Below are positions 39,410-50,307 of a stretch of 64,000 nt of DNA, piece after piece. The DNA is taken from positions 124,001-188,000 of the forward strand of contig NZ_LR593887.1 in assembly GCF_901538355.1 (NCBI RefSeq). The letters are read 5' to 3'. A program made the position numbers and the translations under genes. Each line of letters starts with the position of its first letter. Position 1 is the stretch's first letter. The notes under the pieces were generated by a model. It saw only the letters and a list, made by a program, of their open reading frames with translations, did not search any database and was not told where the DNA came from. This stretch comes from Tuwongella immobilis. GTDB taxonomy: Bacteria > Planctomycetota > Planctomycetia > Gemmatales > Gemmataceae.

Positions 39410-39457
39410 CCCTCACCCCCCCCTATCGTGTGTTGTGTTGGTGTGTGTTGTGTGAGT

Positions 39458-39674
39458 GTGGGACGCTGTCCCACGCCCTGGCCAAGGGAACGTGGTCCCC
39501 TTGGCGAACCCCGTCTTCGCTCCGGTCATTTTCCGAGACAGAATTTGTCTGCGACAAATCCCGCCTCGGAAAATGCTCGTCGCGGTGGGCCACTTGGGCT
39601 TCCCGGCGGGAGACTTTCGCTGGCTGACGCCCCGTTTCGGGCACTCTTCAGCCGACTTTGGCGATGTCGCGGAT
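39458..39674 (+). repeat. Solo half-copy of the fold-back element arm
   Basis: A 217-bp unit beginning with the palindrome GTGGGACGCTGTCCCAC (39458-39474). Next comes a GCCAAGGG/CCCTTGGC hairpin, then a long hairpin opening TTTTCCGAG (39529) and closing CTCGGAAAA (39573). The tail encodes no recognisable product. It has the same orientation as the left arm of the full element that starts 25 bases further on. Confidence 0.88.
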
Positions 39675-39699
39675 TGTGTGTGTTGTGCTGTGTGTGAGT

Positions 39700-40317
39700 G
39701 TGGGACGCTGTCCCACGCCCTGGCCAAGGGAACTGGGTCCCCTTGGCGAACCCCGGTTTCGCTCCGATCATTTTCCGGTGCGATCGATTGACTGGCGTCA
39801 ATGCGCTCACCCCGGAAAATGCTCGTCGCGGTGGGCCACTTGGGCTTCCCGGCGGGAGACTTTCGCTGGCTGACGCCCCGTTTCGGGCACTCCTCAGCCA
39901 CACTCGGTGATGCCGGGGAGGGTGCGATTGGAGGCTGTTTGATCCATCTCCGCGAATTGGCTGTCGATGGAATCGCCACGTGAGAATTCGCTGCCAACCG
40001 CATCTCCATCGGACCATCGGCGATCGTCTCCATTCCGCGACTTGGAACCAAAATCGGCAGCCCGCGTGAGTGATGGATCGAGTCACCCCAATCGGCCAAT
40101 CCGCGACATCGTCGAAGTCGGCTGAGGAGCCGCAGAAATGGGGCGACAGCCAGCGATTGCTCCCCGCCAGCAAGCCCAAAGGTGGCCCCCCGCGACGAGC
40201 ATTTTCCGAGGCGGGATTTGTCGCAGACAAATTCTGTCTCGGAAAATGACCGGAGCGAAGCCGGGGATTGCCAAGGGGACCCAGTTCCCTTGGCCAGGGC
40301 GTGGGACAGCGTCCCAC
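39700..40317. mobile_element. 618-bp fold-back element inside the capsid operon
   Basis: Two inverted arms of about 210 bp (39700-39910 forward; about 40115-40317 reversed) flank a core of about 200 bp. Each outer end is the 17-bp palindrome built on GTGGGAC/GTCCCAC, and each arm holds further nested hairpins. Outside the arms GTGTGAGTG-type words on the left mirror CACTCAC-type words on the right. No transposase is encoded, so movement, if any, would need a helper in trans. It lies between portal and prohead protease. A related element is at 49620-50209. Confidence 0.82.
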
Positions 40318-40410
40318 ACTCATCCACTCCTCCACACTCACTCATCGCACACTCACTCGCCCTCCCACTCCCCCAGCACTGACACCTGCCATTTCCACCT
40401 GCAACGGGGG

Positions 40411-45939: not shown

Positions 45940-46012
45940 TGCGCCCGGTGGGGATCGAACCCACGACCACAAGATTAAAAGTCTCGTGCTCTACCTGCTG
46001 AGCTACAGGCGC
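45940..46012 (-). tRNA. tRNA-Lys (anticodon UUU)
   Basis: A 73-base tRNA with a seven-base acceptor stem GCGCCTG pairing with CGGGCGC (one G-U). The T-arm is GTGGGTTCGATCCCCAC and the anticodon loop is CTTTTAA, giving UUU. The discriminator base is A and no CCA is encoded. Sequence at the D-arm (TAGCTCAGCAGGTAGAGCA) is standard. Confidence 0.95.
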
Positions 46013-49560: not shown

Positions 49561-49619
49561 TCTGCGCGAGTGTGAGTGGGGTGGATCGGGTGTGAGTGGA
49601 GATTGTGGGGATGAGTGGT

Positions 49620-50209
49620 GTGGGACGCTGTCCCACGCCCTGGCCAAGGGACTTGGAAGCCCCTTGGCAATCCCCGTCTTCGCTCCGGTCATTTTCGGGA
49701 CGTTTTTTGACGCTGTCAAAAAGCCGCCCTGAAAATGCTCGTCGCGGGGGCCACTTTGGGCTTTCCGGCAGGGAGCATTCGTTGGCTGACGCCTCTCTTT
49801 GGGCATTCCTCAGCCAGGATGCTCAATGATGCGGAATGGTTATTGGGGTGGATTGATCCCACTCACACGCGGGCTGTCGATTCGGTTTCAATGGATGGAA
49901 TTGGCAGTCGATCGATTCACAATTCTGATGACGAACTCACGTCGGTAGCCCATTTGCAGCAATGGATGAAGGCATCCAATCGCACCATCCGCGACCTCGT
50001 CAAAGTTGGCTGAAGAGTGCCCGAAAAGGGGCGACAGCCAACGAGAGTCCCTCGCCGGTAAGCCCCAGACGTGGCCCCCCGCGAGGAGCATTTATCGGGG
50101 TGAGCGGGGTGACGCAGTCAACCGATCGCCCCGAAAAATGATCGGAGCGAAGCCGGGGATCGCCAAGGGGCTGTCAGTCCCTTGGCCAGGGCGTGGGACA
50201 GCGTCCCAC
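49620..50209. mobile_element. 590-bp fold-back element, second copy
   Basis: Same design as 39700-40317: the end palindrome GTGGGAC-GCT-GTCCCAC at 49620-49636 and its inverse at 50193-50209. Arms of about 200 bp are oppositely oriented around a core of about 170 bp that appears inverted relative to the other element. The inner hairpins differ in sequence from those of the first element but remain paired. It lies between the converging oxidoreductase and DUF1501 genes, where it interrupts nothing. No product is encoded. Confidence 0.82.
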
Positions 50210-50307
50210 ACCACTTCCACCGAGAGCGTCCCACTCTCACAGAGCGTCCCCCATCCATACCCACTTATCCACCCACACCCACACCCACTCACCCACATTG
50301 ATGCGGG

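Follow-up and report, generated by a model that had tools for sequence, protein, structure and literature searches.

Two fold-back elements and a half copy in the genome of Tuwongella immobilis raise the question of why nested hairpins whose inner stems differ from arm to arm should remain paired. They lie in a window of 64,000 nucleotides, the whole stretch of DNA analysed here, which corresponds to bases 124001-188000 of a single 6,690,754-base contig. All motifs that the original prediction had named for elements A and B and for the half copy were found at their positions: the end palindrome GTGGGACGCTGTCCCAC, the hairpin GCCAAGGG/CCCTTGGC and the bounds CATTTTC/GAAAATG, with the right arm of element B having CATTTAT in place of CATTTTC. 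The three inner stems quoted as examples (ATTTGTC-TGC-GACAAAT, ATTGAC-TGGC-GTCAAT and TTTGAC-GCT-GTCAAA) were confirmed in the window sequence. Read from outside inwards, an arm of the family consists of H1 (GTGGGACGCTGTCCCAC or AGGGGCTCTGCCCCT), H2 (GCCAAGGG...CCCTTGGC), H3, for which we assigned three types by eye in T. immobilis, and a fourth inverted stretch. The features of the window are the following.

39458-39674, plus strand: solo (extra) arm, the half copy, with H3 of type i; complementary to the right arm of element A at 96% over 141 nt
39528-39575, plus strand: H3 hairpin of the solo arm (CATTTTC...ATTTGTC-TGC-GACAAAT...GAAAATG); folding z of -3.9
39700-40317, no strand: fold-back element A, from H1 to H1'; z of -24, predicted four-way junction
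39769-39821, plus strand: H3 of the left arm of element A, type ii
40200-40248, minus strand: H3 of the right arm of element A, type i
49563-49619, plus strand: GT-rich outer flank of element B, upward from the end of the left gene
49620-50209, no strand: fold-back element B; inverted arms and predicted four-way junction
49690-49737, plus strand: H3 of the left arm of element B, type iii
50089-50140, minus strand: H3 of the right arm of element B, type ii, its inner stem bearing unpaired changes
50210-50307, minus strand: AC-rich outer flank of element B with GGGACGCT units, reaching the end of the right, convergent gene

The inverted arms extend over 141 nt at 96% (39453-39593 / 40182-40322), 102 nt at 89% (39676-39777 / 40240-40341) and 40 nt at 100% (49614-49653 / 50176-50215). 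Folded as single-stranded DNA, element A reached -249.9 kcal/mol vs. -124.8 ± 5.2 kcal/mol for 20 shuffles (z = -24), and the inner hairpins of the window taken alone gave z values from -2.9 to -4.1. A tRNA gene is located between elements A and B (45940-46012, minus strand).

The family is not limited to these copies. About 40 arms at about 25 places, including elements A, B and the half copy, were found in the 6.69 Mb T. immobilis genome. A profile search of fetched loci recovered 33 full arms at a score of at least 70, and a covariance model built from them gave 70 matches at about 25 places, many of which are antisense echoes of H3. Ten elements, nine of them short, have H3 of type ii in one arm and of type i or iii in the other; the four other gene-size units (L035, L037, L038 and L039) have type ii in both. 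Tested against random pairing of arms, the ten elements alone gave p = 0.005 and all fourteen together p = 0.08. H1 and H2 are frequently unlike between the two arms of an element. Irregular arrays of about 24-nt GTGTGGGACGCTGTCC units were seen outside H1 (e.g., at L030, L035 and L038), inverted on both sides, and private variants of these arrays are common to both sides of an element. Extra arms also stand beside complete elements, as a direct copy in L030 and as an inverted copy at window positions 39458-39674.

A structure model of the arm (R1), run over 102 genomes of the order, matched two of them, T. immobilis and G032, a 12.4 Mb genome from another genus of the same taxonomic family, which carries these arms too. 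The model made from G032 itself gave 73 matches in that genome, two of which are weak antisense echoes, and none in two congeners. A profile search of G032 yielded 71 arms, i.e., 34 inverted pairs and three single arms. One pair, L173, was left out as a probable assembly duplicate, since it repeats the L172 stretch, flanks included, at 99.9% over 893 nt; 33 pairs and 69 arms are left. By eye, H1 and the H3 flanks are recognisably alike between the two carriers, and H2 and the H3 stems are not. Model R2 gave one match over 397 genomes of the class. In the large scans, with stricter filters at which weak copies may be lost, exact patterns had no matches in 84,980 named genomes apart from two taken as chance, with no paired arms beside them; viral contigs gave no matches to the fold-back arm patterns and plasmids none for either genome's element. 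A plain DNA search of 59 relatives returned, beyond the own genome, a single 29-nt match in G040, taken as chance. As for a known RNA family, no match reached the Rfam gathering threshold, either in 14 loci or at the window elements. A literature search found no description of the fold-back family, which is not proof of its being unpublished.

The claim that changes on both sides of the inner stems preserve pairing was examined in both carriers. For the 33 arms of T. immobilis (31 distinct rows), 98.3% of 1143 cells were paired, and 95 cells were changed on both sides, compared with 33.1 ± 4.4 in shuffles (0/500 as high) and at most 16 when the partners were slid by 1-3 columns. Nine pairs had a change on both sides, which is not above shuffles (8.6; 323/500 reached that number), few stem types being responsible; the test in this genome is positive for cells and score, not for the number of pairs or of types. 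For 22 arms of G032, 98.9% of 832 cells were paired, 99 cells had changes on both sides, compared with 28.3 ± 4.9 in shuffles (0/500 as high) and at most 10 on sliding, and 14 pairs had a change on both sides vs. 8.8 in shuffles (0/500 as high), the number of pair types not being above shuffles (180/500). The reading as fold-back elements whose nested hairpins retain their pairing is supported in two genomes. Unpaired changes in the inner stems do occur in a minority: columns 90/107 are unpaired in 5 of 31 T. immobilis rows and columns 91/106 in 2 of 31, the latter pair being a wobble in ten rows.

The H3 stems of G032, of which 67 out of 69 arms could be parsed, comprise 44 distinct 5′ stems and 1117 Watson-Crick pairs in 1129 cells, with 12 mismatches and no G.T. 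Since G.T is absent from all 1129 cells, single-stranded or extruded DNA is favoured over RNA, despite the T. immobilis wobble at one pair. The family is paired at the DNA level, and of the folded RNA or single-stranded DNA proposed originally, it is the DNA that gains by these counts, an RNA function not being supported. When the H3 mismatches of G032 are read from outside inwards, A.C accounts for 7 of the 12 and G.T for none, which is a strand-polar bias.

How the two arms of an element relate to each other could be analysed in the 33 G032 pairs, of which 31 were usable for H2, 31 for the H3 loops and 29 for the H3 stems. H2 is identical between arms in 21 of 31 elements (1.9 by chance). 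The H3 stems within an element are less alike than random ones (p = 0.0006), and the H3 loop classes differ between arms in 23 of 31 elements vs. 15.2 expected (p = 0.004). The GCTCCC that precedes one H3 pairs with the GGGAGC that follows the other, just as the GCTCGC following the first pairs with the GCGAGC preceding the second; as the H3 flanks of one arm pair with those of the other arm, four stems meet. Both arms carry these pairing flanks in 24 of 33 elements. H1-H2 of one arm can pair with H1-H2 of the other, and each arm has at the equivalent position an H3 that differs and pairs with itself, so that the strand is predicted to fold into a rod broken by a four-way junction of outer stem, left H3, inner stem and right H3. 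Such a junction is predicted in 27 of 33 G032 elements, in 22 without any unpaired base. The exceptions are L161, L166 and L170, with a three- or five-way branching, and L109, L117 and L168, with no branch point there (L117 and L168 have a fold without the junction, L109 none in the tested zone). It is predicted also in all nine short T. immobilis elements, in five without unpaired bases. In this genome the branch point can slide by a few bases because H3 starts with similar bases in the two arms. In the folding model, a junction of this kind follows automatically wherever a long inverted repeat contains, at one point, two palindromes that differ; that it acts as the recognition signal is what we infer.

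The reading that we prefer, with a probability of roughly 60%, is that the family represents non-autonomous mobile DNA elements of the fold-back type, on whose folded DNA an enzyme acts in trans, and that pairing is kept by the need for the fold together with templated copying. The family is real and in all likelihood mobile. Some units hold a gene in what would be the apical loop, encoding a DUF1559 pilin-like protein, a WG-repeat protein or a product of unassigned kind. The enzyme would recognise this fold while the DNA there is single-stranded or extruded, the junction or the H3 hairpins being its most likely targets. Pairing may be maintained both by the requirement for the fold and by hairpin-templated copying in replication, and the same copying may spread changes from arm to arm and duplicate arms and outer units. 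A more far-reaching version is that this is a new sort of bacterial mobile DNA, in which the signal is a four-way junction formed in one strand (the arms pair except at the self-paired H3), the stems are free and are rewritten by hairpin-templated copying, entry occurs from one fixed end with the other left open, and a gene may sit in the apical loop. We regard this version as speculative and rather doubtful.

The alternative that survives best treats the paired changes as a by-product of mutation: forks switch template at hairpins and one side is copied onto the other, which would keep the stems perfect even if the fold had no function. We consider it a tentative possibility. In five G032 arms (L161+, L166-, L170+, L172+ and L178+) the 3′ base of H3 has changed from GCTCGC to GGGAGC, the exact inverted copy of the arm's own 5′ base GCTCCC, and similar clustered changes perfecting the stem base are present in both arms of L039 in T. 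immobilis. The left arm of L172 (L172+) has an H3 loop that is the reverse complement of the usual one, with the stem base perfected. Clustered stem-perfecting changes and an inverted loop are what template switching at a hairpin leaves behind according to parts of a published description of this mechanism (PMC8794818), and the match of the outer arms within an element and the absence of wobble intermediates in G032 fit the same origin. Hairpin-templated copying is implicated, alongside selection, by the perfected stems and the one inverted loop, and the original statement that the changes point to selection is upheld only in part. What still suggests selection is that the H3 loops and junction flanks are conserved while the stems vary and that the two H3 within one element resemble each other less than expected by chance; both argue against a by-product, as does the recurrence of the arms in a second genus.

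Evidence of movement comes in part from the ends of the G032 elements. Direct repeats of 9-12 nt lie just outside L146, L163, L164, L169, L171 and L174. When 11-nt repeats were tested in the 13 elements whose right terminus could be recognised, five scored higher than every one of the 52 control flanks and the other eight did not; exact repeats of at least 10 nt were present in 5 of 33 elements vs. about 2% of mismatched pairs. The direct repeats of about 11 bp at the ends of some copies therefore indicate insertion by a staggered cut. No target duplication was found in T. immobilis, where 14 elements were not above mismatched pairs. The right terminus in G032 is constant (AGGGGCTTGCCCTCTG), and the left one varies in sequence and distance; a fixed end, a variable end and a duplication together fit six elements. 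In the left flank of L120 the outer end and H1 occur about three times in tandem. Flanking genes were identified in five of six relatives, and no empty site at base resolution was obtained, as the matches stop in coding sequence.

Such duplications could also be expected if a miniature element was moved in trans by an ordinary DDE transposase (e.g., IS4-like) acting on its ends. Trans-mobilised cassettes are known, which counts for this explanation, and the G032 duplications of about 11 bp are of like size to those of the IS4 family, for which a portion of the rows in PMC2266710 gives about 10 bp, with a range of 8-13. On balance it is unlikely: the two true ends in G032, one constant and one variable, have by eye no common terminal inverted repeat, and no short one adjoins the duplication. 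The constant right outer end was found only beside the elements, with no autonomous copy bearing it. The helper transposase recognising the ends, which the original prediction proposed to look for, was not found in the Y1 search of T. immobilis, in the right-end search of G032 or among the genes between the arms. The Y1 (HUH) transposase family PF01797 had no matches in T. immobilis and matches in 5 of 14 control genomes, and no Foldback-, P- or Mutator-type transposase gene was seen between the arms.

A retroposon, whose RNA is copied into a nicked target, would likewise leave one end fixed, the other variable and the target duplicated, which is the pattern in G032 (fixed right end, variable left end, duplication of approximately 11 nt), and reverse transcriptases are encoded in both carriers (3 and 16 matches). 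These enzymes, however, do not discriminate because they are present in 9 of 10 family genomes searched, and the fact that G032 lacks G.T pairs speaks against a stage of structured RNA, which makes this origin improbable. Bidirectional transcription terminators that sit at the ends of genes and have spread by local duplication alone are a very improbable explanation. With neighbour genes assigned by a simple base-composition rule, 11 of the 14 T. immobilis elements for which both neighbours were called have convergent ones, as terminators would have it, but 0 of 32 elements in G032 do, nine of them lying between divergent genes, and passenger genes and target duplications do not agree with terminators either. 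A structured regulatory RNA family, in spite of the strong covariation and the wobble at one pair (91/106) in 10 of 31 T. immobilis arms, is extremely unlikely given that the G032 H3 stems have no G.T and that the Rfam searches at 14 loci and at the window elements were negative.

Among known systems, the preferred fold-back mobile element has counterparts in the Foldback-like transposons (FB, Galileo), which, as outlined in parts of PMC3573991, have long inverted arms, internal tandem repeats, variable loops, arm-only copies and target duplications. Our family resembles the Drosophila representatives (FB, Galileo, Tetris) in its long fold-back arms and variable loop, and also in the tandem repeats of the arms (the GTGTGGGACGCTGTCC units outside H1 and the triple unit in L120), in having copies that consist of arms alone and in its target duplications. 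It differs from them in being bacterial, in the lack of a transposase copy among those found, in a duplication that lies outside non-matching ends and in having, at equivalent points of the two arms, hairpins that pair with themselves and differ from each other. With bacterial MITEs and mobile insertion cassettes, such as MIC231, it has in common non-autonomous, intergenic, non-coding or passenger-only units, presumably moved in trans, and a target site duplication (in G032; not found in T. immobilis). Unlike those, it has true ends without a short terminal inverted repeat (G032) and hairpin arms of about 140-220 nt, and no parent IS was found. The fold-back anatomy and the cargo place the family near Foldback elements and mobile insertion cassettes, and its G032 ends set it apart from MITEs.

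Palindromes or long inverted repeats associated with RAYT (REP) and TIRYT proteins have been noted in Planctomycetes too, according to sections of PMC3733652. Our elements are likewise a family of palindromes and long inverted repeats; the absence of a Y1 transposase from T. immobilis and the target duplications in G032 separate them from REP/RAYT, TIRYT and IS200/IS605 systems. Single-strand HUH insertion is not known to make target duplications. Integron attC sites bound gene units by folded single-strand sites whose sequence varies and whose structure is kept (as described in passages of PMC8946536), and the gene units here have comparable boundaries, variable in sequence and constant in structure. 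In contrast to attC cassettes, they stand singly and dispersed and have inverted arms and target duplications, with no array seen and no attI.

With two genera and more than 100 arms, the family is a naturally replicated system for dating and dissecting covariation at the DNA level, in which selection vs. template switching as the source of compensatory changes becomes testable. In the distant relative G032 the hairpin sequences have been rewritten repeatedly without loss of pairing. The family also points to a mobilising enzyme, perhaps a reader of DNA junctions, and to gene cassettes spread by such an enzyme.

As to cargo, three units of about 1.58 kb in T. immobilis (L037, L038 and L039) have one common 299-codon reading frame for a DUF1559 protein with an N-terminal methylation motif, the family assignment having been run on the L038 copy. 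The three sequences are almost the same between H1 and H1' and show no relation beyond these bounds, which counts in favour of mobility. The ends and leader of this gene are nearly identical among them and its interior is patchily variable, as if paralogues were mixed. One 2 kb unit encodes the WG-repeat protein. L035 is nested, and its two outer arms are identical in the alignment. Two G032 units hold the reading frames of unassigned kind, as judged by a family search on one of the two, and no recombinase-like gene was found among the cargo of either genome. Finally, the elements concentrate near the replication origin: the T. immobilis contig starts with dnaA, and 12 of 17 well-kept loci are within 510 kb of it (p = 5e-7), or 12 of 25 when degenerate copies are counted (p = 1e-4); the 510-kb width was picked after seeing the data, and 0 of 20000 random sets reached 12 in any 1.02-Mb arc.
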